From positions 1,907,501 to 1,971,500 of the forward strand of contig NZ_QFFF01000001.1 of assembly GCF_003129465.1 (NCBI RefSeq): a stretch of 64,000 bases of DNA, read 5' to 3'. The stretch is from Sphingosinicella humi. GTDB taxonomy: Bacteria > Pseudomonadota > Alphaproteobacteria > Sphingomonadales > Sphingomonadaceae. The translations under genes were made by a program, and so were the position numbers. Under the pieces are notes generated by a model, which saw only the letters and a program-made list of their open reading frames with translations, made no database searches and was not told the DNA's origin. Shown here one piece after another: positions 8,113-62,380 of this stretch (the first letter of the stretch is position 1; every line of letters begins with the position of its first letter).

Positions 8113-9072
8113 CTAGCGCATCGATACTGGGCTGTTAAGTCCGCTTGCGTGCTTCTTTTTTGCCGCGTGGCCTGGGTCCCAGCAAGGATCCCATTCGGGT
8201 TCGGGACCGAAGCGCGCGGCGAGGAAATCGACCAGGGCCCGGACCCTTGCGGTGGTGGCGCGTCCGGGCGGCATGACGACATAGAGACCGTTCTCCTCGA
8301 GCGGATAGTCGGCGAGGACGACCTCCAGTTGGCCGGACATGATCGCGGGCGACGCGATGAAGGTGGGGAGGACGACGACGCCGAGCCCGGCGACCGCAGC
8401 CTCGCGCAGAAGCTCACCATTGTCCGCCCGAAGCCGAGCGGTGCCGCGCACATATTCCCAGCGCCCATCGACCTTGAACCGCCACTGATTGCCGCGGCCG
8501 GGATTGGCGTAGAGGAGGAGGTCGTGATCGTTGAGGTCGCGCGGATGCCTGGGCCGTCCGCGTTCGGCCAGATAGGCGGGGTTTGCCAGGACGACTGCGC
8601 GCACAGGGGCGATCCGCCGGGCGATCAGCGACGAATCCGCCAAACTCCCGATCCGTACCGCCAGATCGAAGCCGCCGCCGACCAGGTCGACCAGCCGGTC
8701 GTCGAGCGATATGTCGAGGTCGACATCGGGGTGCAGCCGCGCGAACTCGGCGATCGCCGGCGCCAGATGCTCGGTGCCGAAGGAGAGGGGCGCGGCGAGG
8801 CGGATCGTTCCGGCGATCTGCGTCACGGCATCGGCGACGATCTCCCTTGCGGCATCGAGGTCGGCGAGAATGTTGGAGGCGCGGGCAAAATAGGCCTCGC
8901 CTATGTCGGTCGGCTGTGCGCCCTGCGCCGAACGGGTGAGGAGCTTGGCGCCGAGGTCCTGCTCCAACCGGGCGACGCGGCGGCTGACAATCGACTTCGA
9001 CAGGCCCATCCGTTCGGCGGCGCGGGCGAAGGCTCCGGTCTCCACCACCCGCACGAAGGCGAGAACATCCAT
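8113..9072 (-). CDS. LysR family transcriptional regulator
   Basis: A LysR-type regulator of about 319 residues: winged HTH at residues 1-60 (MDVLAFVRVVETGAFARAAE, then GLSKSIVSRRVARLE), followed by a substrate-binding domain (LAAPLSFGTEHLAP onward). ATG 9072 matches the usual start of the family; an in-frame GTG at 9108 would add 12 residues and neither has a strong ribosome site. It is divergent from the azoreductase gene at 9191, the usual arrangement for a LysR protein controlling its neighbour and itself, and a TAC-N11-GTA dyad lies between them. The inducer is likely a quinone, azo compound or other electrophile, by inference from the neighbour. Confidence 0.9.
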   Translation of the reverse strand: MDVLAFVRVVETGAFARAAERMGLSKSIVSRRVARLEQDLGAKLLTRSAQGAQPTDIGEAYFARASNILADLDAAREIVADAVTQIAGTIRLAAPLSFGTEHLAPAIAEFARLHPDVDLDISLDDRLVDLVGGGFDLAVRIGSLADSSLIARRIAPVRAVVLANPAYLAERGRPRHPRDLNDHDLLLYANPGRGNQWRFKVDGRWEYVRGTARLRADNGELLREAAVAGLGVVVLPTFIASPAIMSGQLEVVLADYPLEENGLYVVMPPGRATTARVRALVDFLAARFGPEPEWDPCWDPGHAAKKKHASGLNSPVSMR

Positions 9073-9128
9073 CAGGTCGATCGAAGAGCGTTCCACAATC
9101 AGCAACACCGTAATGCGTCGAGGATGGC

Positions 9129-9145
9129 TACTGGCAACAATGGTA
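9129..9145. promoter_or_regulatory. Candidate LysR operator (TAC-N11-GTA dyad)
   Basis: In the 118-bp gap between the divergent LysR and azoreductase genes there is a dyad TAC-N11-GTA that contains the T-N11-A pattern usual for LysR sites. It is 45 bp upstream of the azoreductase start. Short dyads occur by chance, so this is a candidate only. Confidence 0.35.
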
Positions 9146-9190
9146 GGCTCTTAAATCTCCTCCAGCAAGTTCAACGGAGGAAAATCTACC

Positions 9191-9817
9191 ATGACCAGGA
9201 CTCTCATTCTCGACAGCGCGGTAACCGGCGAGGCGTCGGTCTCCAAGCGACTGACCGCGGCCTTCGCCGACGAGCTTCGCCGCCGCGACCCCAAGGTGCA
9301 GATCGTTTCACGCGACCTCGGCGCCAATCCCGTGCCGCACCTTCTGCCCGAGACGGTGGCCGGCATTCGCGCGACGGCGACGACCGAGGCGGAGAAGGCT
9401 GCGCTCGCCCTCTCCGACGAGCTGGTTGACGAGCTTCGCGAAACGGACCTGCTCGTGATCGGCGCGCCGATGTACAATTTCGGCATTCCGTCGGCGCTCA
9501 AGACCTGGTTCGACTATATCCTGCGAGCGGGCGTCACCTTCCGCTATACCGAAAACGGCCCCGAAGGGCTGCTGCCGGTCAAGAAGGCGGTGGTGATCGA
9601 GACGCGCGGCGGCCTCTACAGCGAGGGGCCGGCGGTGGCGATGGACAGCCAGGAGCCGCACCTTCGCACCCTGCTGGGCTTCATGGGCGTTAACGACGTA
9701 ATTTTCGTCCGTGCCGAGAAGCTGGGCTTCGGTCCTGAGGCCGTGCAGGAAGCCGTCGACGGCGCCATCGCCGAGCTCAATGGATGCGCGGAAAAGGAGT
9801 TGGCCCTGGCCGCCTGA
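9191..9817 (+). CDS. azoR: FMN-dependent NADH-azoreductase
   Basis: A 208-residue flavodoxin-like reductase. The N-terminus MTRTLILDSAVTGEASVSK fits the FMN phosphate-binding loop, and GAPMYNFGIPSALKTWFDY is the AzoR/NQO-type FMN-binding signature (about residues 95-113). AzoR enzymes transfer two electrons from NAD(P)H to azo compounds and quinones in the cytoplasm and protect against thiol-reactive electrophiles. GGAGG sits about 8 bp before the ATG. The gene is divergent from a LysR regulator and is followed by a pirin, a pairing often seen in quinone/electrophile response loci. A GC hairpin follows the stop codon. Confidence 0.93.
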   Translation: MTRTLILDSAVTGEASVSKRLTAAFADELRRRDPKVQIVSRDLGANPVPHLLPETVAGIRATATTEAEKAALALSDELVDELRETDLLVIGAPMYNFGIPSALKTWFDYILRAGVTFRYTENGPEGLLPVKKAVVIETRGGLYSEGPAVAMDSQEPHLRTLLGFMGVNDVIFVRAEKLGFGPEAVQEAVDGAIAELNGCAEKELALAA

Positions 9818-9877
9818 TAAACGTCCCGGAAGGGACCCGATTACCGTCGCCTTTTCTCCCCCCGGGGCGACGCACAC

Positions 9878-9909
9878 GAGGCCCGCCGGTCCCTCCCCCG
9901 GCGGGCCTC
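9878..9909 (+). terminator. GC-rich hairpin between azoR and pirin
   Basis: A perfect 12-bp stem (9878-9889 with 9898-9909) and an 8-nt loop, without a clear U tract. It sits directly before the pirin ribosome site AAGGAG (9912-9917), so it could end azoR transcripts or protect and modulate a joint transcript. Confidence 0.5.
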
Positions 9910-9923
9910 TCAAGGAGATGGAC

Positions 9924-10622
9924 ATGATCGACATTCGACCCTTCGACACGCTCGGCCATGCCGACCATGGCTGGCTCAATGCGCGTCATCATTTCTCTTT
10001 CGCCAACTATTATGATCCCGGCCGCATGGGCTGGGGCGCGATCCGGGTGTGGAACGACGACGAGATCGCCGCCCGCTCGGGCTTTCCGCCGCACCCGCAT
10101 GCCGACATGGAGATCATCACGTACGTCCGCACGGGCGCGATCACCCACCAGGATTCGATGGGCAATCAGGGCCGCACGGCCGCGGGCGACATTCAGGTGA
10201 TGAGCGCCGGCACCGGCGTCCGTCATGCCGAATATAATCTTGAGGACGAGACCACGACCTTGTTCCAGATCTGGGTGCTGACGGACAAGCCGGGCACGGA
10301 GCCGAGCTGGGGCGCCAAGCAATTCCCCAAGGACGACCGGGCAGGGAGCTTCGTCACCCTCGCCAGCGGCTTTGCCGACGATGCGGATGCGCTCAGGATC
10401 AACGCCGCCGCGCGGGTCATGGGCGCGACGCTGAGAGCGGGCGAGACGGCGGAACTCAGCCTCGATCTTCAGCGCCACGTCTATCTCGTCCCGGTCACCG
10501 GCCGGATCGAGGTGAACGGAGTCGCGACCGCCCCGCGCGATGGCGTCGCCGTCACCGGCGAGGAGCGGCTGATCATCGCAGCCCTCGATGATACGGAGAT
10601 CGTGCTGGTCGACGCTCGCTGA
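9924..10622 (+). CDS. Pirin family protein
   Basis: A 232-residue bicupin. The N-terminal cupin shows FSFANYYDP and HPHADMEIITYV, including the metal-ligand histidines typical of pirins; the second half (ARVMGATLRAGET onward) is the C-terminal cupin. Bacterial pirins bind iron and some act as quercetinases or redox-responsive cofactors. ATG 9924 is preceded by AAGGAG with 6 bp spacing; the ATG at 9918 directly abuts that site and is less likely. The azoR-pirin order suggests a shared role in quinone or flavonoid detoxification, which is inference from context. Confidence 0.9.
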   Translation: MIDIRPFDTLGHADHGWLNARHHFSFANYYDPGRMGWGAIRVWNDDEIAARSGFPPHPHADMEIITYVRTGAITHQDSMGNQGRTAAGDIQVMSAGTGVRHAEYNLEDETTTLFQIWVLTDKPGTEPSWGAKQFPKDDRAGSFVTLASGFADDADALRINAAARVMGATLRAGETAELSLDLQRHVYLVPVTGRIEVNGVATAPRDGVAVTGEERLIIAALDDTEIVLVDAR

Positions 10623-10626
10623 TCCG

Positions 10627-10664
10627 CCGAGGCGGCCGATCCCTCACGGGGTCGGCCGCCTCGG
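10627..10664 (+). terminator. Long GC hairpin after pirin gene
   Basis: A perfect 13-bp stem (10627-10639 with 10652-10664) whose inner bases can also pair. There is no U run, so it may act as a factor-dependent terminator or insulator between pirin and the stress-type promoter at 10686. Confidence 0.5.
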
Positions 10665-10685
10665 TCCGCTCTGCACGGGTTCATG

Positions 10686-10711
10686 GGAACAGGGCCGTGG
10701 TGCCTGCCGTT
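10686..10711 (+). promoter_or_regulatory. EcfG-type (general stress response) promoter for the lipoprotein gene
   Basis: GGAAC at 10686-10690, 17 bp spacer, CGTT at 10708-10711. This is the exact consensus reported for the alphaproteobacterial general-stress sigma factor EcfG (GGAAC-N16/17-CGTT). It predicts transcription starting near 10718, about 15 nt before ATG 10734. Confidence 0.75.
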
Positions 10712-10733
10712 TGAAGACCGGAAGGAGAGCGGA

Positions 10734-11288
10734 ATGAGGTCCATCACGATCATTGGCGCGGCGGCAGCGCTTGTTTCCTGTTCTGGCGAGGCGCCCGAGA
10801 TCAATAGTCAACCGGCCGAGCAGCCGGACATACCGCAGGCCTCGGGGCCGCCGGTGCCGGACCAGGAGCCGGCGCCTGCCGCTCCGGCCCCTGCGCCCGC
10901 CATGGCCTGGGAAAGCGTCGCCGGCGGGGGCGGCACAATGCTCCGGCTGACCGGTAAGGACGGGAATGTGAGGATGAGCATCGCCTGCATGGGCGATCCG
11001 CCCCGCCTGGTGGTCAACGTGCCCGAATTCCGGCCGGTGATGAGCGAGGACCGCTTCGCGCTCGGACTTGGATCAGAGCCGGTGACGCTCGTCGCCAATC
11101 CCTATGAGCACGAGGCAAAGCCGGGCGTGACGGGCGAGGGAGCTGTTCCCGACAATCTCTCGGCCTTCGTCGACGCGGCCGACGAGGTGCGAGCCCTGTA
11201 CGGGGCGCAGCAGACCGGGCCTTACCCGGCGCCCTCGCGCGAGCTGAAACAGCTTCTGGTCGAAGCGTGCGAAGGCGCGGCGGACTAG
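10734..11288 (+). CDS. Small lipoprotein, unknown function, under a stress-type promoter
   Basis: A 184-residue protein starting MRSITIIGAAAALVSCSG, with a lipobox ending at Cys16. A Pro/Ala-rich linker follows to about residue 60, then a compact domain with GGTMLRLTGKDGNVRMSIAC. It is probably anchored in the envelope. GGAG lies 6 bp before the ATG. An exact EcfG-type promoter 23 bp upstream indicates induction by general stress. I recognise no family. The last codons overlap the -35 element of the next stress promoter (11288). Confidence 0.8.
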   Translation: MRSITIIGAAAALVSCSGEAPEINSQPAEQPDIPQASGPPVPDQEPAPAAPAPAPAMAWESVAGGGGTMLRLTGKDGNVRMSIACMGDPPRLVVNVPEFRPVMSEDRFALGLGSEPVTLVANPYEHEAKPGVTGEGAVPDNLSAFVDAADEVRALYGAQQTGPYPAPSRELKQLLVEACEGAAD

Positions 11289-11312
11289 GAACGCAGGCGG
11301 TTGCCGTTCGTT
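11288..11312 (+). promoter_or_regulatory. EcfG-type promoter, predicted start at or next to ATG 11321
   Basis: GGAAC at 11288-11292, 16 bp spacer, CGTT at 11309-11312: exact EcfG consensus. Its -35 begins on the last base of the preceding lipoprotein gene. Transcription should start about 6-9 nt after CGTT, that is at or just before ATG 11321, so the transcript may be leaderless. Confidence 0.75.
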
Positions 11313-11320
11313 CTTACCCT

Positions 11321-11476
11321 ATGATCACCGCAGAAAATCAGCAGGGCCGCGCGCGCGGCCTTTATGACGAGCAGCTCCAGCGCCAGAAGCAGGAGAAGCT
11401 GCTCTTCCGCCACCCCCGTGCCCGTGAAGCCGCGACGCCTGCGATGGCGCCCGCCGGCGGGCTGCCCCGGGCCTGA
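11321..11476 (+). CDS. Short hydrophilic ORF (51 residues), possibly leaderless, or an sRNA of the stress island
   Basis: ATG 11321 opens a 51-residue frame (MITAENQQGRARGLYDEQLQ and on) rich in Gln, Arg and Ala, with no membrane segment or signal. There is no room for a ribosome site because an exact EcfG-type promoter ends 8 bp upstream. A strong hairpin terminator follows at 11478. The promoter and terminator define a transcript of about 185 nt, so the product could be a leaderless small protein, a small RNA, or both. No family recognised. Confidence 0.5.
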   Translation: MITAENQQGRARGLYDEQLQRQKQEKLLFRHPRAREAATPAMAPAGGLPRA

Positions 11477-11477
11477 A

Positions 11478-11503
11478 GAGGCGCGCCCGCGCGGGCGCGC
11501 CTC
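11478..11503. terminator. Perfect 13-bp inverted repeat between convergent units
   Basis: 11478-11490 is the exact reverse complement of 11491-11503, so it folds as an 11-bp GC stem with a 4-nt loop. It separates the plus-strand short ORF from the convergent DUF2383 gene and can serve both. There is no clear U tract. Confidence 0.6.
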
Positions 11504-11517
11504 TCCCATGACTGCTA

Positions 11518-11976
11518 TCAGCCGGCGGAGGTCACCCCCGCATGGGCCGCGCGCCACTCGTCGTGACCCGCACGGATCGATGAATAGCATTGGGTGATGA
11601 CGCTGCGCGTCTCCGGCGAGAGCTGATCGTCTCTCAAGGCCGTCTCCCATTTCTCGTTGAGATAGGTCTCGCCATGGTCGACCTCGGCGATCACCGACGC
11701 GTCGTCGCTGCCCGTGACCTTGTCGCGAAGCGTCAAGAAGGCGCGGTGGGCGGCGGCGAGGATGCTGCCGTCGTCCTGGGGATCGCCGCCCAGGCGCCGC
11801 ACCTCATCGCGGAGCTTGCCGACGATCTGCTCGCGCTCCGTCACCCGCCCTCGGAAGGCAGCGGCGAAGCGGCTGTTGGTGGCCTCCTCGGCCGCGCGGC
11901 GATAGCCGTCGATACTGTCGACGGTGGTCTCGATCAGGCCGTTCAAGACGCGGATATCGTGGCTCTTTTCGAACAT
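11518..11976 (-). CDS. PA2169-type (DUF2383) four-helix-bundle protein
   Basis: A 152-residue helical protein (MFEKSHDIRVLNGLIETTVD...). It matches the DUF2383/PA2169 ferritin-like four-helix-bundle family in length and in the pattern EVDHGETYLNEKWE and AGHDEW near the C-terminus. ATG 11976 follows GGAGAAGG on the minus strand; upstream in-frame codons are not supported. The biochemical function of the family is unsettled; members are commonly stress associated. It is the only minus-strand gene in the 10.7-14.0 kb stress island, and I find no GGAAC promoter in its own upstream region. Confidence 0.85.
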   Translation of the reverse strand: MFEKSHDIRVLNGLIETTVDSIDGYRRAAEEATNSRFAAAFRGRVTEREQIVGKLRDEVRRLGGDPQDDGSILAAAHRAFLTLRDKVTGSDDASVIAEVDHGETYLNEKWETALRDDQLSPETRSVITQCYSSIRAGHDEWRAAHAGVTSAG

Positions 11977-12039
11977 TTCCTTCTCCTGCTGGGGGTTGCG
12001 CGACACCAACGCACTTGCCGCGAGAAAGGTGCGCGCCCC

Positions 12040-12064
12040 GGAACGGCGGCATGGACAGGGCGTT
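12040..12064 (+). promoter_or_regulatory. EcfG-type promoter for two small hydrophilic genes
   Basis: GGAAC at 12040-12044, 16 bp spacer, CGTT at 12061-12064: exact consensus. The first start codon is ATG 12092, leaving room for a short leader with GAGAGG at 12081-12086. Confidence 0.75.
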
Positions 12065-12091
12065 TCAAGGAGACGACATGGAGAGGCGGCG

Positions 12092-12331
12092 ATGACCGAT
12101 CGAGAGACCAATCAGGACAAGCAGAGCGAGCGGGGACGACGCGCCTCCTTCGATCCCAAATCGGGCGAGGTCCATGGCAGCGGATCGGGCGCTGGCGGCG
12201 GCGGCAATCCTCGCGAGGATTATGACGACGATTCCATGGGTGGCGGCGGCGCCGAGCCGCAGGGCGGTCCGCGGGCGATCGACAAGGCCGTCCGCAAGCC
12301 CGAGGACCGCCATCAGGGCGACGCGGCGTGA
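12092..12331 (+). CDS. Small hydrophilic protein (79 residues), stress-island member
   Basis: MTDRETNQDKQSERGRRASF begins a 79-residue protein with a Gly-rich centre and an acidic patch (REDYDDDSMGGGG). It has no Cys and very few hydrophobic residues, so it is likely disordered, like hydrophilins linked to desiccation and osmotic stress. GAGAGG is 5 bp before ATG 12092. An exact EcfG-type promoter lies 28 bp upstream. Its TGA overlaps the GTG start of the next gene, so the two are probably translationally coupled. Function unknown. Confidence 0.7.
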   Translation: MTDRETNQDKQSERGRRASFDPKSGEVHGSGSGAGGGGNPREDYDDDSMGGGGAEPQGGPRAIDKAVRKPEDRHQGDAA

Positions 12332-12543
12332 CCGGCGGCAAGAAGCGTCACCCGCTGCCCGCCAGCGATGAAGCGCGGCACGGCGAGATTCCTGAACCGC
12401 TGGAACGTGAGAAGGGCACCGGCGACGACGACTCTGCCGTGGTACAGCCGGGCGAAGAGGCGGTAGACCCGGATGGGAAGCTTTACCGCTACGAGGATCT
12501 CGGCCGAGGCCCGGCGGGTTCGCGCCGTGCGGCGCATCTATAG
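12328..12543 (+). CDS. Small hydrophilic protein (71 residues), coupled to the gene before it
   Basis: It starts at GTG 12328, which overlaps the preceding stop in a GTGA arrangement. The sequence is MTGGKKRHPLPASDEARHGE, then EKGTGDDDSAVVQPGEEAVD. It is charged and has no membrane segment. The coupling and the upstream EcfG-type promoter place it in the same stress operon. The annotation depends on the overlap and on continued coding-like base use; no family is recognised. Confidence 0.5.
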   Translation: MTGGKKRHPLPASDEARHGEIPEPLEREKGTGDDDSAVVQPGEEAVDPDGKLYRYEDLGRGPAGSRRAAHL

Positions 12544-12617
12544 AACCCTTCGGCGCGCTCTCGGCGGAAAAGATCAGGTTTTCAGTAGCTTCCACAAATG
12601 GTGGCGCGGCAGGCGCA

Positions 12618-12643
12618 GGAACGAGGGCGGTCCGGGGGGCGTT
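12618..12643 (+). promoter_or_regulatory. EcfG-type promoter for the Gln/Gly-rich protein
   Basis: GGAAC at 12618-12622, 17 bp spacer, CGTT at 12640-12643: exact consensus. It lies 29 bp before ATG 12673, with the strong ribosome site GAGGAGG at 12661-12667 in between. Confidence 0.75.
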
Positions 12644-12672
12644 GATTGATCCTCTCAGTTGAGGAGGATGCA

Positions 12673-13263
12673 ATGGTACATCGGAAAGACACGGACAAGC
12701 AGCATGGCCTTCGCGGCAGCGACCTGCAGCAATCGCAGCAGGGCGGCCGGACGGGCGAACCCGGCGGCGACGTCCATCGCGGGCAGCAGCAGGCGGCACA
12801 AGGCGGCACCGGTGGCCGGCAGATGGGCGGCGGCGCTTCGGCGAGCGACATGGGTCAAGGCGGCGGCAGCAGCGGCTCCGCCGGCTATGGCGACATGCAG
12901 AACCAGCAAAACATGCAAGGTCAGCAAGGGCAGGGCATGCGGTCCGGCCAAGGCCAGGATCGCGGCGAAGCCATTGACGAGCAGCAGGGTGGCGGCCGCG
13001 ACGAGTCGAGCATAAGCGGCGGCAGCGAATGGGATCAGCAGCAGGCGACCGGCCAGCGCGAGCGCCAGATGGGAAGCACCGGTGGCGGCGGCATGGACCC
13101 GAGCCAGGGCGGCCGTCATAGCGGTACCAGCGAATGGGACCAGCAGCAGGGCCAGGGCAGCAAGCAGCGCCAGCAGGGCGGCGGCAGCGTCGACTTCAAG
13201 CAGGACCAGAAGCGTCATCAAGATCGTGGGCAGGGCGACATCGATTTCGAAAGCGATCTTTGA
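12673..13263 (+). CDS. Gln/Gly-rich, probably disordered protein (196 residues), stress-island member
   Basis: The protein begins MVHRKDTDKQHGLRGSDLQQ and is then almost entirely Gly, Gln, Ser, Asp and Arg, with runs such as NQQNMQGQQGQG. The motif S-x-SEWDQQQ occurs twice (about residues 117 and 152), so there is an internal repeat. It has no Cys, no signal peptide and hardly any aliphatic residues. GAGGAGG precedes ATG 12673 by 5 bp and an exact EcfG-type promoter lies just upstream. The composition suggests a desiccation-type hydrophilin or a condensate-forming protein, which is inference. A 42-residue Gln-rich protein at 61778-61906 has similar composition. Confidence 0.75.
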   Translation: MVHRKDTDKQHGLRGSDLQQSQQGGRTGEPGGDVHRGQQQAAQGGTGGRQMGGGASASDMGQGGGSSGSAGYGDMQNQQNMQGQQGQGMRSGQGQDRGEAIDEQQGGGRDESSISGGSEWDQQQATGQRERQMGSTGGGGMDPSQGGRHSGTSEWDQQQGQGSKQRQQGGGSVDFKQDQKRHQDRGQGDIDFESDL

Positions 13264-13291
13264 ACCGCCTGAAATTGACGCTGGTTAAATG

Positions 13292-13324
13292 GGGCCGTTC
13301 CTTCGGGAGCGGCCCTCCTTTTTT
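13292..13324 (+). terminator. Intrinsic terminator of the Gln/Gly-rich gene
   Basis: A 10-bp GC stem (13292-13301 with 13306-13315) with a TTCG tetraloop is followed by CTCC and six T. The T run ends exactly where the next EcfG-type -35 (GGAAC, 13325) begins, so one unit ends and the next begins with no spare bases. Confidence 0.85.
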
Positions 13325-13349
13325 GGAACTGTTCGTCGTCCCGCTCGTC
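13325..13349 (+). promoter_or_regulatory. EcfG-type promoter variant for the Lys/Ala-rich protein
   Basis: GGAAC at 13325-13329, 16 bp spacer, CGTC at 13346-13349. The -10 differs from CGTT by one base, as in the site at 35277. Start codon ATG 13386 follows 36 bp later. Confidence 0.55.
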
Positions 13350-13385
13350 TGTTACGCAACAGTTATAACATGCTGGAGACGGCCA

Positions 13386-14006
13386 ATGGCGAAGACGAAA
13401 TCAACGACGGGCAAGTCGGGGGGTAAGAAGTCGACCAAGTCCGGTTCGACCGCATCGGCGCGGATCAACGAGGCCCTGCGCGAAGCCGGGCAGAGAGCGG
13501 CCGAGTTGGCGCAGAATCCTGTGGCGCGCGGCATGCTGGCCGCGGGCCTGGTCACCGCCGCGGCCGCGCTTACCTCGAGCAAGAAGGTGCGCGACAGCGT
13601 GAAGGAGGCGGGCCGTGACGCGGCCGACAACGCCGAAGCCGCGGCCGATAATGCGAGCAAGGTCGGCGCCGCGATCATCACCGCCGCAACGGACGCCGTG
13701 CGCAAGTTCATGGCAGCTGGCGGCGGCGATACCACCGGCGGCGGGACCAAGGTCGCTTCGACGACGAAGAAAAGCAGCAGCACGGCGAAGGCCAGGACGA
13801 GCAAGGCGAAAAGCGGCGGCACGAAGAAAACCGGCGCGGCCAAGACATCGACCGCCAAGTCGGGCGCGCCGACTAAAACCGCTTCCGCCCGGAAGGCGAA
13901 ATCCGCCGCCGCGAGCAAGCCCAAGTCGACCACGGCGAGACGCGCCTCGGCCAAGGGGGGCGCCAAGAAGAGCGCTGGAACCGGAAGCGAGGGCGGCGGC
14001 CGCTAA
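13386..14006 (+). CDS. Lys/Ala-rich protein with hydrophobic helix and histone-H1-like tail
   Basis: A 206-residue protein: a basic N-terminus (MAKTKSTTGKSGGKK), a helical Ala-rich middle with PVARGMLAAGLVTAAAALTSSKKVRDS (about 48-75), and a long Lys/Ala/Thr/Ser tail from about 120 that resembles bacterial histone-H1-like proteins. GGAGA precedes ATG 13386. The middle segment is shared with the product at 62033-62380 (AAGLLAAAAALT...KLRDA), so the two are paralogues differing in tail length. A nucleoid or envelope-associated stress role is possible; the tail suggests nucleic-acid binding. A near-consensus EcfG-type promoter lies upstream and a terminator follows. Confidence 0.75.
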   Translation: MAKTKSTTGKSGGKKSTKSGSTASARINEALREAGQRAAELAQNPVARGMLAAGLVTAAAALTSSKKVRDSVKEAGRDAADNAEAAADNASKVGAAIITAATDAVRKFMAAGGGDTTGGGTKVASTTKKSSSTAKARTSKAKSGGTKKTGAAKTSTAKSGAPTKTASARKAKSAAASKPKSTTARRASAKGGAKKSAGTGSEGGGR

Positions 14007-14033
14007 GTCCGCCCGAGCCTTTGGAATAGCATG

Positions 14034-14065
14034 AGGCGGGGCGCCCGGTCGGCGCCCCGCCTTTT
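14034..14065. terminator. Bidirectional terminator between convergent genes
   Basis: A 12-bp GC stem (14034-14045 with 14051-14062), a 5-nt loop, then TTTT on the plus strand. It separates the Lys/Ala-rich gene from the convergent glycine-zipper gene. Confidence 0.8.
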
Positions 14066-14072
14066 CCTTAGC

Positions 14073-14381
14073 TTAGCGGCAGTAACGGCCACGGCCGCTG
14101 TTGCGGTCGATGTGGCGGCCGAGCAGGGCGCCGGCGGCGGCGCCGACAATGGTGCCGGTGGCACGATCGCGGCCGCCGTCGATCTCGCGACCGATCAGGG
14201 CGCCGGCCGCGCCGCCGACCAGCAGGCCGACCGTGCCGTCCTTCTTGCGGCAATAATAGCGGCCATCGTCGCCACGCCAGGACTTGCCCTTGTAATAGCC
14301 GTCCTTGGCCATGGCGGGCGCCGGCAGCGCCATGGGAACGGCCATGGTGGCAGCGGCGACGGCGAGAGCGATGTTACGCAT
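14073..14381 (-). CDS. Glycine-zipper 2TM-type exported protein
   Basis: A 102-residue protein with a signal peptide ending in AMAKD, a YYCRKKDG segment, and a glycine-zipper repeat (VGLLVGGAAGALIGREID, then TIVGAAAGALLGRHID). Such proteins (OmpA/Rick_17kDa-like) sit in the envelope and are often stress linked. The two Cys residues could form a disulfide. It lies at the end of the stress island but I see no GGAAC element upstream on its strand. Promoter elements presumably lie in 14382-14610, which holds no other gene I can support. Confidence 0.85.
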   Translation of the reverse strand: MRNIALAVAAATMAVPMALPAPAMAKDGYYKGKSWRGDDGRYYCRKKDGTVGLLVGGAAGALIGREIDGGRDRATGTIVGAAAGALLGRHIDRNSGRGRYCR

Positions 14382-14610
14382 GACTTCTTCCCTTCACTGA
14401 TTACTCGTACGGAACAACGCGGGCCTTGTCGCAGCGGTTTCATTAACCACACACAACGAGGCGAACCGTTTGCGACCAATGGGGATATTGCTGGTTTGCC
14501 CCCTGCCACTGTGGCGTCGAAAACACAGCATCATTGGGCGCCAAGCGAAAGAATCCGAACTGGGACGGCGGAATCGCCGCTCGCGTCTCCTTCGCGACGA
14601 CGCCGAACCG

Positions 14611-15039
14611 CTAAGCGTTCAGTCGGTGCTCGAGCGTGATCTCGGCATTGAGGAGCTTCGAGATCGGACAGCCGGCCTTGGCGCCCTCGGCGAGGGCTGC
14701 GAAGCGATCTTCATCGATGCCGTCAACGCGGGCGTCGACGCTGAGGTCGGAGCGGCTGACCTTGAAGCCCTCGCCCTCCTTCTCGAGCTTGACCTTGGCG
14801 GTCGTCTCCAGGGTGCCGTCGGTGAAGCCCTCCTTCGCCAGCGCGAAGGACAGGGCCATGGTGAAGCAGGCGGCGTGCGCCGCCGCGATCAGCTCTTCCG
14901 GATTGGTGCCGGGGGCGTCTTCGAACCGGGTGCCGAAGCCGTAGGGCTGCTCGGCAAGAACGCCCGACTGGGTCGAAACCTGGCCGCGGCCGTCCTTGCC
15001 GAAGCCTTCGTAACGCGCCGAAGCGGTGCGGTTAATCAT
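14611..15039 (-). CDS. OsmC family peroxiredoxin
   Basis: A 142-residue OsmC/Ohr-fold protein. It starts MINRTASARYEGFGKDGRGQ; the two redox cysteines appear in AAHAACFTMALS and AKAGCPISKLL. OsmC proteins reduce organic hydroperoxides in the cytoplasm. ATG 15039 has AGGAGG at 6 bp; the ATG one codon earlier (15042) is only 3 bp from it. The family is commonly under general stress control, in keeping with the neighbouring island, but I find no consensus stress promoter directly upstream, and it may be read through from the unknown gene at 15092. Confidence 0.92.
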   Translation of the reverse strand: MINRTASARYEGFGKDGRGQVSTQSGVLAEQPYGFGTRFEDAPGTNPEELIAAAHAACFTMALSFALAKEGFTDGTLETTAKVKLEKEGEGFKVSRSDLSVDARVDGIDEDRFAALAEGAKAGCPISKLLNAEITLEHRLNA

Positions 15040-15091
15040 CATGGCCCTCCTGCTGGTCGGGAGGGTAACGGCCGAAGCCGAGCTTCGATCC

Positions 15092-15640
15092 TCAGCCCGC
15101 GACTGTGACGTCGACCTTCTCGACCCATTCGGGATAGAAGACCGGCTCGCGGTTCGACCAGCCCGGAGCCGTCGCCGCGGCCTCGCTGATCGACTGGAGC
15201 AGCACCCGCCGCTTCTCGGGATGGAGGTGCGGGAGCGCCGCCGCCGCGCAGAAGGCGCCCGGCAGCCACGGCCGCACCGCCGCGCCGATCAGCCGCTCGT
15301 AGAGAAAGCGGTAGGAGGCGAAGTCGGGAAGCCGGTCCTGGCTGAGGTCGAAGGCGGTCATGGTGACGAGCGGCGCCATCAGCGGCTCCATCACGTCGAG
15401 GCCGCTGTCGTCCGGCACATAATTGCGGATATGGTCGAGCCGCTGATAGATGCGGGCCTGGGCACGGATGCTGGCGGCCTCGGCGACGTCGCGCGACCAG
15501 CGCTTGATCGCGTCACGGCGGCCGAGCCCCACGTCGAGCGAGCGCCGGATGTAGCGCTGCGTGCCCTTCGAGAAGCTCGCGAATTCCTTCATTTCAGCCA
15601 GAGTCAGCGCGCCGTCGGCGGGCCTGGTCTGCGTACCCAT
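15092..15640 (-). CDS. Hypothetical protein, 182 residues
   Basis: A helical-looking soluble protein (MGTQTRPADGALTLAEMKEF, then RYIRRSLDVGLGRRDAIKRW) with no signal, membrane segment or Cys pair. It has normal coding base use and an aromatic-rich C-terminus (WSNREPVFYPEWVEKV). It lies 52 bp upstream of osmC on the same strand and may be co-transcribed. I do not recognise the family. GGAG lies close before the ATG. Confidence 0.7.
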   Translation of the reverse strand: MGTQTRPADGALTLAEMKEFASFSKGTQRYIRRSLDVGLGRRDAIKRWSRDVAEAASIRAQARIYQRLDHIRNYVPDDSGLDVMEPLMAPLVTMTAFDLSQDRLPDFASYRFLYERLIGAAVRPWLPGAFCAAAALPHLHPEKRRVLLQSISEAAATAPGWSNREPVFYPEWVEKVDVTVAG

Positions 15641-16139
15641 GATCCCACTCCTTTTGCCCTGCGGGGGATCATGCGCCGAAATCGGTTACGCGACGCTTAA
15701 TCAGTTCCCCGGCTCCCGTTAAGGATTGAATCAGAGAAGGTTGGGCGCTGCAATTGGTAATCGCCGCAGATGGGATTGCGAATCCACAGTGTCACATCGC
15801 GGCAACATGGGCCCGCGCCGGCCGACGGATTTCGGCGCGTCCCAACTCTGCGGCAAAGTTTTCCACAATTTTGCGACGAACGTGCAGGCGGCGGCGCGCC
15901 GCACCGACAAAGATTATCGCGTCATGAAAAGCTGCTATAAGCCTTGCTTGACCTGTGGGGCTATGGCGATGGCGCATCGAATCAAGGACGCGGCCGAAAA
16001 TGGCGTTCAGCCTTCGAGCAACACATCGGCGGCCGCGGCCGGTCTGAGGCCGCGTTCTTTTTCGACAAATGACGGTGCGTCTTCTGCGAACGACCTGATC
16101 GGCAACGGCGTTTTCGGGTCGACTGCGTTATTAGGCGGC
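15641..16139. other. About 500-bp region upstream of the LytS-type kinase; no separate gene supported
   Basis: The kinase reading frame stays open back to 15726 (with ATGs at 15963 and 15969), so part of this segment could be coding if the kinase starts earlier. Base use in 15726-15960 is less coding-like and the translated stretch lacks any domain. Several GANTC sites (for example in TCGAATCAAGG near 15977) and an AT-richer stretch suggest a promoter region. Confidence 0.4.
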
Positions 16140-22860: not shown

Positions 22861-23019
22861 ATGCGCAGCAACGGCGGTCAGGGAAAAGGCAAGAACAACC
22901 TGCACGACCCGACGCTCAAGGAGCAAGAGCGCGCCCGCGGCGTCAGCGGCGAAGCGATCCAGGGCGAGAAGACGGTGAAGGCCGAGCCGAACCGGCGAGG
23001 GACCGCCAAGTCCTCCTGA
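22861..23019 (+). CDS. Small hydrophilic protein, 52 residues
   Basis: MRSNGGQGKGKNNLHDPTLK opens a 52-residue, highly charged frame ending TAKSS. GAGGAG lies about 8 bp before ATG 22861 and a strong terminator follows directly, so it looks like a real single-gene unit. The composition (Gly, Lys, Asn, Glu, no Cys) is like the hydrophilic stress proteins at 12-13 kb. Upstream there is only a loose GGAAAC...GGTT resemblance to the stress promoter, which I do not call. Confidence 0.6.
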   Translation: MRSNGGQGKGKNNLHDPTLKEQERARGVSGEAIQGEKTVKAEPNRRGTAKSS

Positions 23020-35276: not shown

Positions 35277-35301
35277 GGAACAAGCGTGCGCTTCGCGCGT
35301 C
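35277..35301 (+). promoter_or_regulatory. EcfG-type promoter variant for the GlsB-type gene
   Basis: GGAAC at 35277-35281, 16 bp spacer, CGTC at 35298-35301. This is the same one-base -10 variant as at 13325. The predicted start near 35309 leaves a leader of about 55 nt before ATG 35365. Confidence 0.5.
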
Positions 35302-35364
35302 TTGGATTCGGAACGCCGCTGAAACCTCTTGGGATCATCGGCAGTGAGTACAGGAGGGAAGAAG

Positions 35365-35634
35365 ATGAATCTCATCATTGCACTGATCATCGGGGGTATC
35401 ATCGGCTGGCTCGCGAGCATCATTATGCGCACCGACGCCCAGCAAGGTATTCTCCTCAATATTGTGGTAGGGATCATCGGGTCCCTGCTCGGTGGCTTCC
35501 TGCTCGGCCCGCTCATCGGCGGCGGCAACCTGCTCAGCGGCGCCTTCGACATCATGACGCTGATCGTCGCCCTGCTTGGCGCGATCATCCTGCTCGCGAT
35601 CGTCAACCTGTTCCGCCGCGGCAGCGTTCGTTAA
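35365..35634 (+). CDS. GlsB/YeaQ/YmgE family stress-response membrane protein
   Basis: An 89-residue protein with three hydrophobic glycine-rich helices (MNLIIALIIGGIIGWLASII, VVGIIGSLLGGFLLGPLIGG, and TLIVALLGAIILLAIVNLF), the transglycosylase-associated/YeaQ pattern. AGGAGGG lies directly upstream of ATG 35365. The family is induced by general stress in many bacteria, which fits the GGAAC-N16-CGTC element about 65 bp upstream. A strong terminator follows. Confidence 0.92.
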   Translation: MNLIIALIIGGIIGWLASIIMRTDAQQGILLNIVVGIIGSLLGGFLLGPLIGGGNLLSGAFDIMTLIVALLGAIILLAIVNLFRRGSVR

Positions 35635-61777: not shown

Positions 61778-61906
61778 TTACTGCTGCTGGCGGCCGCGGT
61801 CGCTGCTGCCGCCCTGCTGCCGCTGGCGATCGCTCTGCTGCTGTTGCTGCTGCTGGCGATCCTGCCTGCCTTGCTGACGCTGTTTATTCTTGTCCTGACC
61901 TGGCAT
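61778..61906 (-). CDS. Gln-rich small protein, 42 residues
   Basis: A perfect ribosome site (GGAGGAGG, complement at about 61911-61919) precedes ATG 61906. The product MPGQDKNKQRQQGRQDRQQQ continues with more Gln, Arg, Ser and Asp and ends DRGRQQQ; 19 of 42 residues are Gln. It has its own terminator at 61708. The plus strand of the same stretch reads as a long hydrophobic frame, which is the artefact of CAG/CTG-type codons. Composition is like the 196-residue stress protein at 12673. Function unknown. Confidence 0.65.
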   Translation of the reverse strand: MPGQDKNKQRQQGRQDRQQQQQQQSDRQRQQGGSSDRGRQQQ

Positions 61907-62032
61907 CAGTGCCTCCTCCGTTCAAGTTCCCCCAAGGGGGTGGGAACGGAAGAAAAACGCGAGGAGCGAAGGCACGGTTCCCCCCGTCCATCGCGCAGTA
62001 GCGGCACCCCGACGTCCGCTCGCCGTCTCCGC

Positions 62033-62380
62033 TCAGGGCTTTGCGGCGCCGTTCCGGGCCTTGCCGGCGAGGAGCTCGTCGCGCAGCGCCTTGCCCATCG
62101 CGCCCGCCGCCGCCTTGGCCGCGGCCTTGGCACGGCCAGCCTTCGCGGCCGCGGCCGCGTCCTTGACTTCCTCGCCCAATTCCCGGGCGGCGTCGCGAAG
62201 CTTCCTGTCGCCGGTCAGCGCGGCGGCGGCGGCGAGCAGGCCGGCGGCGACGACGTCGCTGATCACCGGATGCTCGACGGCGAGCTTCAGCGCCTTGTTG
62301 CCGGCCTTGCGGGCCTGCTTCGGGATCTTCACGCCGCCGATCTTCTTGGGGATCTTCGGCTTCTTCGATTTCTTGGCCAT
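62033..62380 (-). CDS. Ala/Lys-rich protein, paralogue of the stress-island protein at 13386
   Basis: A 115-residue protein: basic start (MAKKSKKPKIPKKIGGVKIP), central helix VISDVVAAGLLAAAAALTGDRKLRDAARELG and an Ala/Lys-rich C-terminal part. The middle aligns with the 13386-14006 product (MLAAGLVTAAAALTSSKKVRDSVKEAG), but this copy lacks the long Lys/Thr/Ser tail. GGAG lies just before ATG 62380. It follows the Mpl-like gene by 49 bp on the same strand. Function unknown. Confidence 0.75.
   Translation of the reverse strand: MAKKSKKPKIPKKIGGVKIPKQARKAGNKALKLAVEHPVISDVVAAGLLAAAAALTGDRKLRDAARELGEEVKDAAAAAKAGRAKAAAKAAAGAMGKALRDELLAGKARNGAAKP

Follow-up and report, generated by a model that had tools for sequence, protein, structure and literature searches.

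A block of small, mostly unstudied genes in Sphingosinicella humi is, with high probability, activated as a group by EcfG, the sigma factor of the general stress response. The block lies in the window, by which we mean the whole stretch of 64,000 nucleotides analysed, and its sites are well supported as conserved promoters whose regulators are encoded in the same genome. We assign a probability of roughly 0.8 to the whole explanation, a cluster of direct EcfG targets with protective products that belongs to the alphaproteobacterial general stress response. The regulon is of a known kind, and the member families are new. Under stress, phosphorylated PhyR releases EcfG from NepR. In the proposed mechanism, EcfG freed in this way would direct RNA polymerase to initiate at GGAAC-N16/17-CGT[T/C] before B51 (as a leaderless message), D79-E71, F196, and G206, and before a Gly-zipper gene on the other strand, with osmC and a DUF2383 gene as possible further targets.

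All five plus-strand sites named in a preliminary description of this DNA were recovered, at 10686 (N17), 11288 (N16), 12040 (N16), 12618 (N17), and 13325 (N16, CGTC). The distance of 9-37 bp to a start codon given there held only approximately, the values measured from the motif end being 22, 8, 27, 29, and 36 bp, respectively. When both strands are counted, the window contains five exact matches, a number reached by none of 100 shuffles, whose mean was 0.77. That four exact sites within 1.93 kb are far above chance was also confirmed: when 26 sites per strand were scattered randomly over 3.03 Mb, such clustering arose on one strand at a frequency of 1.5e-5, a rough figure because only 3 of the 200,000 placements were positive. 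Within the window, the CGTC form by itself did not exceed chance (4 seen, 1.69 expected; at least 4 in 10 of 100 shuffles), nor did the one-mismatch class (18 versus 12.5, and 10 versus 13.2), and the sites of the Gly-zipper and OsmC genes therefore count through conservation only. An Rfam search of positions 9000-16000 gave no match.

A scan of the full genome, proposed in the preliminary description as a check, showed that 38 of 52 exact sites fall in no called gene and precede a start by no more than 100 bp, a count that depends on a home-made gene caller, which still puts an antisense open reading frame over E71 in the window. The reversed pattern, used as the control, did so at 5 of 30 examined sites out of 34 in the genome. 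The genes for NepR, PhyR, an EcfG-like sigma factor, and a HisKA_2 kinase lie together ~130 kb off, at 2.051-2.055 Mb of the contig. NepR and PhyR were identified by Pfam, and the sigma factor was assigned because it has sigma-70 regions 2 and 4, matches PhyR_sigma2, and is encoded beside phyR; a profile search found a single NepR in the genome. The other proposed check, a synteny search in related genomes, showed that much of the arrangement is common to relatives. Control genes at the same loci gave the background there: an exact site preceded 9 of 273, and a site with no more than one mismatch preceded 37 of 273. Chance as the sole explanation of the sites was rejected on the combined grounds of the shuffles, the random placement, the genome-wide positions, and the footprints in relatives.

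The promoter of the D79-E71 unit (GGAAC-N16-CGTT; 12040..12064, plus strand), 27 bp before D79, has the most exact counterparts of all the sites, being exact upstream of 13 of 16 D79 orthologs. D79 (12092..12331, plus strand) encodes a 79-residue, Gly-rich hydrophilic protein with the signature GEVHGSGSGAGGGGNPxEDYD. It overlaps by 4 bases with E71 (12328..12543, plus strand), which encodes a 71-residue hydrophilic protein with the signature HPLPxSDEARHxEIPE and is present in 6 of 119 family genomes, its own genome included. As the second gene in the operon, E71 serves as an internal negative: an exact site was seen before only 1 of 13 copies, and that one is a fused call. Among 17 loci with D79 homologs elsewhere in sphingomonads, the site was exact at only 2 and carried one mismatch at 9, two at 4, and three at 2. 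Passages of PMC6599016 report that gene #2452 of S. melonis Fr1 is EcfG-dependent by RNA-seq (log2 of -3.6 in the ecfG mutant), and that its motif scored 7.71, where the cut-off for likely direct targets was 10. In the genome G076, the motif listed for #2452 precedes a D79 homolog at the listed distance, and the D79 family includes #2452. Support for EcfG dependence is carried over from this one S. melonis experiment on a D79-family gene. Together with the genome-wide motif positions, the footprints in relatives, and the PhyR-NepR-EcfG locus, this RNA-seq result gives good support to the EcfG-controlled island claimed originally.

Divergent from D79 lies a gene for a DUF2383/PA2169-family four-helix-bundle protein (11518..11976, minus strand), whose product passes the family cut-offs (94 bits versus 30.8; 109.6 bits versus 44.8, TIGR02284 family). 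No exact EcfG-type site was found before it; there is just the D79 site read backwards, GAAAC-N16-CGTT. The D79 site might on this basis work in both directions, and 5 of 10 relatives show its reverse reading with one mismatch, but the near-palindromic nature of the motif accounts for most of this.

At B51 (11321..11476, plus strand; 51 residues, core QGRAxGLYDEQLQRQQQEKLL), which has matches in 7 of 26 congeneric genomes, the promoter GGAAC-N16-CGTT (11288..11312, plus strand) ends exactly 8 bp upstream of the ATG. Precisely this spacing is found at B51 in five genomes (that of the window, G020, G019, G007, and G009), and the G009 copy sits in another neighbourhood. As the start codon falls near the expected +1, the spacing suggests that the B51 transcript is a leaderless mRNA. 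The same 8-bp spacing recurs at D79 homologs in five other sphingomonad loci, and it predicts leaderless mRNAs among EcfG targets. A literature search joining "leaderless" with EcfG returned PMC4842269 alone, in the passages of which EcfG appears merely in a reference.

The imperfect promoter of G206 (GGAAC-N16-CGTC; 13325..13349, plus strand), 36 bp before the start, retains its GGAAC upstream of 10 of 11 orthologs and is present with at most one mismatch at 8 of 11. G206 (13386..14006, plus strand) is predicted to form helices over residues 23-110, followed by a low-confidence tail rich in Lys, Ala, Ser, and Thr (pI 11.1). The G family was found in none of 16 Sphingomonas-type genomes, in a search set that held no positive control. 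Directly past the -10 element of G206 is an unexplained sequence resembling TGTTACGCAnCAGTTAYRA (13350..13368, plus strand), which occurs at one place only in the genome when up to three mismatches are allowed. A hairpin within it, CTGTT-ACGC-AACAG, is visible in the window and was dismissed, as by eye it is not kept in relatives. On the minus strand, a GAAAC-N17-CGTT site (14416..14441) stands 34 bp before a gene for a Gly-zipper 2TM small protein (Rick_17kDa_Anti; 14073..14381), and the one-mismatch form G[A/C]AAC...CGTT precedes 13 of 13 orthologous genes (12 loci). Further along the same strand, a GGATC-N16-CGTT site (15067..15091) stands 24 bp before osmC, which encodes an OsmC-family peroxiredoxin (14611..15042). 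It is not conserved in the two checkable relatives, one of which (L101) has none and the other (L107) a different one-mismatch site; OsmC members belong to both published sphingomonad regulons, according to passages of PMC6599016 and PMC7083833. These two minus-strand sites had been omitted from the preliminary description. Its picture of unusual proteins does not hold for every product: DUF2383, OsmC, and Gly-zipper are recognised families.

With GAAAC or GCAAC as its -35 element, the Gly-zipper gene might depend on a different sigma factor or on an additional regulator. A broader form of this idea, in which an ECF sigma factor of similar consensus reads all the sites in place of EcfG, could draw on the GAAAC variant and the CGTC -10 element at two well-conserved sites. 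We regard it as highly improbable, since the consensus equals that of EcfG in two sphingomonads (passages of PMC6599016 and PMC7083833), expression of the D79-family gene #2452 requires EcfG in S. melonis, and one NepR was found in the genome. In S. melonis Fr1 the EcfG promoter is given as GGAAC-N17-20-GTT, with enrichment at distances of up to 100 bp from the start (PMC6599016, passages). For EcfG1/EcfG2 of Sphingopyxis granuli TFA, passages of PMC7083833 describe GGAAC-N16-CGTT with a flexible -10 element and a frequent GCAAC -35 element.

Two of the exact sites have few or no exact counterparts in relatives. The GGAAC-N17-CGTT site at 10686..10711 (plus strand) stands 22 bp upstream of LipoA (10734..11288, plus strand), a predicted 184-residue lipoprotein with a lipobox-like ALVSC by our own reading, no match in Pfam or NCBIfam, and matches in 13 of 60 genomes, its own included. 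Twelve relatives have a homolog; in the seven checked, an exact counterpart of the site was found in none and a one-mismatch counterpart in two. The 10686 site is weakly supported and may have arisen by chance. The GGAAC-N17-CGTT site at 12618..12643 (plus strand), 29 bp before F196 (12673..13263, plus strand; a Gln/Gly-rich hydrophilic protein), recurs at the corresponding position in L099, L101, and L105 only. An exact site of its own was called for 2 of 12 F orthologs, with L105 added by eye, and F begins within 16 bp past E in 8 of 12 relatives having F. Serial one- or two-gene units, as proposed in the preliminary description, are hence not the usual state. We put at slightly less than even the chance that EcfG promoters of long standing are confined to B51, D79-E71, G206, and the Gly-zipper gene, that the 10686 site and perhaps the 12618 site are accidental or very recent, and that the density is partly luck. 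The scarcity of exact counterparts at these two sites and the 34 genome matches of the reversed pattern itself speak for such a history; the 22 and 29 bp to the starts, which are within the usual range for the genome, and the same-place counterparts of 12618 speak against it.

What the products do was approached through composition. Hydrophilins were taken, after the definition in passages of PMC4190154, as proteins with Gly above 6% and GRAVY below -1; a mean hydrophilicity above 1 was considered separately. Gly exceeds 6% and GRAVY lies below -1 in D79, E71, F196, and Q42, and likewise in 15 of 17, 13 of 13, and 13 of 13 alignment rows of D, E, and F, respectively; G206 and B51 do not combine these values. 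Q42 (61778..61906, minus strand), a 42-residue Gln-rich protein, belongs to a second, related locus, where GGAAC-N17-CGTT (61956..61981, minus strand) lies 49 bp before it. The preliminary description lacked this site, which is the window's fifth exact match. The same locus carries K115 (62033..62380, minus strand), a Lys/Ala-rich relative of G206, for which no EcfG-type site of its own was found. Two small congeneric genomes, G007 and G019, carry a Gln-rich and Lys-rich pair divergent to B51-D79. The likeness of D79, E71, and F196 to hydrophilins or LEA-like proteins lies in high Gly, GRAVY below -1, and, for E71, a prediction of mostly coil; the difference is that D, E, and F have no Pfam or NCBIfam match and Hopp-Woods means not above 1 (D79 0.88, E71 0.73, F196 0.51; Q42 reaches 1.01), on a scale that may differ from that of PMC4190154. 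A general link between EcfG sites and hydrophilin-like proteins found no support beyond the window: 1 of 33 EcfG-site genes outside the window was hydrophilin-like versus 1 of 107 control genes, and hydrophilins are thus not typical of the EcfG regulon.

From this composition we infer that D79, E71, and F196 are hydrophilin-like and might act in drying or osmotic stress as small disordered protectants. The idea of desiccation protection derives from the composition together with the ecfG2 mutant of Sphingopyxis granuli TFA, which is sensitive to salt, copper, peroxide, and drying (passages of PMC7083833). G206, with its helical part and basic tail, would bind a partner of acidic character, for instance DNA or membrane, and the products would jointly raise survival of drying or osmotic shock. 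A competing view, to which we give not quite even odds, is that none of these are desiccation protectants: G206 and K115 would be nucleoid or envelope proteins, D79-E71-F196 would associate with other stress proteins or regulate them, and the island would be a device for stationary phase or general oxidative stress. It fits the basic tail and predicted helices of G206, the peroxiredoxin and four-helix-bundle neighbours, and the Hopp-Woods means of D79, E71, and F196, which are below the value of 1 in one hydrophilin definition; it has to contend with the Gly and GRAVY values kept across nearly all D, E, and F rows and with the predicted coil of E71. An unlikely elaboration is that D79, E71, and F196, as co-induced disordered proteins, assemble with G206 under stress into a protective structure, either a condensate or a coat on DNA or membrane; the Q42/K115 locus would then be a smaller copy of this pairing of Gln-rich with Lys-rich protein.

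Comparison with known systems places a probable direct-target cluster within the EcfG regulons of sphingomonads. The regulon of S. melonis Fr1, in passages of PMC6599016, shares the promoter type, an OsmC member, many hypothetical genes, and #2452 of the D79 family. In G076, which is close to that strain, the D79 gene is longer (127 residues) and adjoins a gene read as enolase, and no E, F, or G is among the genes called around it. The regulon of Sphingopyxis granuli TFA shares the promoter form, the GCAAC -35 element, and an osmC member, and passages of PMC7083833, supplements aside, contain no such cluster. No description of the cluster was found among the open-access papers listed on hydrophilins, EcfG/PhyR, and Sphingosinicella stress, and none was found there joining hydrophilins with the general stress response in alphaproteobacteria. 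About 40% of the EcfG-dependent genes of S. melonis have no assigned function, according to passages of PMC6599016. Here, several genes of that sort stand side by side, their promoters legible in the sequence itself, so that one deletion made in a laboratory sphingomonad could probe a block of them.

The four exact sites (GGAAC-N16/17-CGTT without mismatch) at 10686, 11288, 12040 and 12618, and the GGAAC-N16-CGTC site at 13325, were all located by a motif search of the window where the preliminary description had placed them, and a fifth exact site was found at 61956 on the minus strand. Five exact sites on both strands compare with 0.77 expected from shuffles. In the genome (3,026,360 bases, 4 contigs), the exact motif occurs 52 times versus 34 times for the reversed pattern, so that up to two thirds of the matches could be chance, judged by count alone. 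Position relative to genes separates the true motif from this control: 38 of the 52 sites lie outside called genes and no more than 100 bp before a start called by a simple codon-usage gene caller, versus 5 of the 30 control sites examined. In the order listed, the island sites precede the start codons of LipoA, B51, D79 (followed by E71), F196 (F) and G206 (G) by 22, 8, 27, 29 and 36 bp, the same range as at the genome's other sites. Outside the window, 33 sites meet this description; judging from our own reading of translations rather than from a family search, the genes that follow them encode, among others, CBS-domain-like, PfpI-like and Gly-zipper proteins and small membrane proteins. At G000:C1:708963-709000 (L005, L006), a single -35 palindrome, GGAACCGGTTCC, serves a pair of exact sites of opposite orientation, which would form back-to-back promoters for the facing genes 17 and 22 bp away. 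A 52-residue hydrophilin-like protein (window 22861-23019) is preceded at 29 bp by GAAAC-N17-GGTT, which departs from the motif at two positions.

The regulator of the general stress response is encoded in this genome. A profile match to NepR lies at G000:C1:2052772-2052861, ~130 kb from the island, beside a PhyR (PhyR_sigma2, PhyR_sigma-like and receiver domains), a HisKA_2 kinase, and a sigma factor that contains regions 2 and 4 and has an additional match to PhyR_sigma2. Identification of this sigma factor as EcfG rests on the domain matches and gene position.

A search of 60 genomes gave D79 matches in 20: the source genome itself, 18 more from the same genus, and a single one from a different genus within the family. 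The relatives include Sphingomonas deserti (G014), S. parva (G003), Sphingosinicella terrae (G005) and Allosphingosinicella vermicomposti (G019). Comparison of the 19 relatives' loci showed the order D79-E71-F in 12; among these, G is the next called gene in 11, the F start lies no more than 16 bp beyond E in eight, DUF2383 is divergent beside D79 in seven, and a Gly-zipper gene lies within the stretch in ten.

Promoter footprints were sought in the 120 bp upstream of each ortholog; the control, 273 further genes called at these loci, may itself include true targets, and in it 9 genes had an exact site and 37 a site with at most one mismatch. An exact site precedes 13 of 16 D79 orthologs, the exceptions being L104 and L108, where D79 follows a site-bearing B51, and L113, a weak homolog located elsewhere. 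The L112 homolog, outside these 16, has GGAAC-N17-TGTT, one mismatch, 21 bp before its start. As expected of a second gene, E71 is nearly devoid of exact sites (1/13, in a fused call). The G orthologs have exact sites in 2 of 11 cases, one mismatch in six, all GGAAC...CGTC, and two or three mismatches in three; GGAAC is retained before ten, and the site is always 30-37 bp before the start. Before F, sites are exact in 2 of 12 and have one mismatch in another, plus L105 by eye, while LipoA relatives show none exact and two with one mismatch among seven checked of 12 with a match. Thus, the imperfect site at 13325 has stronger support than the exact one at 10686. The osmC site in the window has one mismatch; none is within range in L101, and L107 has a different one-mismatch site. 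On the minus strand, the Gly-zipper gene has exactly one mismatch in 13 of 13 genes (12 loci), as G[A/C]AAC with CGTT, 32-38 bp before the called start in 11.

Other upstream elements were also seen. TGTTACGCAnCAGTTAYRA (window 13350-13368), just after the G206 -10, is shared by many of the 12 upstream regions that were aligned by eye or by site, occurs at a single place in the genome, and lies in a region without an Rfam match. A GTTGTTTTAGGTTAATGAAAC-like block (window 14416-14475, minus strand), upstream of and into the Gly-zipper -35, recurs in many relatives; its GGTTAA is reminiscent of a CtrA half-site, so a second regulator of this gene is possible. GGAAC-N16-CGTC also stands 63 bp before a gene for a transglycosylase-associated small membrane protein (window 35277-35634), possibly another target of the CGTC form.

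A B51 match was present in 7 of 26 genomes. In the window, L099, L104 and L108, exactly 8 bp separate the end of its site from the ATG, and the same holds in L152 (G009), where B51 is in another gene neighbourhood; no such site directly precedes B51 in G012, and in G021 the locus is cut by a contig end. Transcription from an ECF promoter is expected to start ~8 bp after the motif. The B51 ATG would then lie approximately at the transcription start, and the gap suggests a leaderless mRNA. This gap occurs at 3 of the 38 gene-proximal sites of this genome, B51 among them, and in Table 1 of PMC6599016 at #1765 and #2534 of S. melonis Fr1. The G009 site (L152:1447-1473) is near-palindromic (GGAACG...CGTTCC) and exact on both strands.

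The D79 family extends to other sphingomonads. Table 1 of PMC6599016 gives a change of log2 -3.6 in an ecfG deletion for the hypothetical protein #2452 of S. melonis Fr1; its motif, GATACGCCCGCGATCCCAACGCGTT, lies 28 bases before the start and scores 7.71 against a cut-off of 10, so it was not counted there as a likely direct target. Searched with up to one mismatch and one position written as R, this motif matched 2 of 295 genomes from the genus of G060, both without mismatch, and in both the next ATG, 28 bases on, begins a protein of 127 residues that contains the D79 core GSGSGAGGGNPGEDF. One of them, G076, has the #2452 motif letter for letter but deviates by one mismatch from a second motif of Table 1, and is therefore a close relative, perhaps not Fr1 itself. 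The best site upstream of the D79 homolog was also scored at 17 other sphingomonad loci (L125-L141): two are exact, nine have one mismatch, four have two and two have three; the one-mismatch sites of L137 and L140, both within a terminator-like repeat, may be chance. Five of the 17 (L126, L127, L129, L131, L134) have the 8-bp gap to the called ATG, as GGATC-N16/17-CGTT; the osmC site of the window has this -35 as well. By our own reading, the homolog lies near a small membrane protein and a putative enolase gene in L125, L130, L132, L133 and L136; it is longer (127-134 residues) in L125, L130 and L133.

A second locus (61778-62380, minus strand), 48 kb from the island, comprises an exact site, the 42-residue Gln-rich Q42 and the Lys-rich K115, which has no site of its own in the window. 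K115 is related to G by profile comparison (47 columns, probability 95, E 3.8e-8), with a K115 profile of three rows only. In L104 and L108, Gln-rich and Lys-rich genes of this kind are divergent to B51-D79, with an exact site on each side.

LipoA, B51, D79, E71, F196 and G206 had no NCBIfam match, nor, together with K115, a Pfam match at 0.01. D79, E71, F196 and Q42 combine Gly above 6% with GRAVY below -1, which is kept in 15 of 17 D, 13 of 13 E and 13 of 13 F alignment rows. E71 is predicted to be mostly coil (mean pLDDT 62), and G206 to form helices at 23-110, after which comes a basic tail of low confidence (mean pLDDT 59).

Of the five serial units first proposed, plus-strand promoters with relatives stand at B51, D79-E71(-F) and G; the sites at F and LipoA, like that at osmC, occur more narrowly. 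The island is better described with the minus-strand Gly-zipper promoter, which has counterparts in relatives, included. EcfG-type regulation is well supported by these sequence comparisons, and the products may act jointly. Within this genus, the island forms part of the general stress regulon and is largely conserved.
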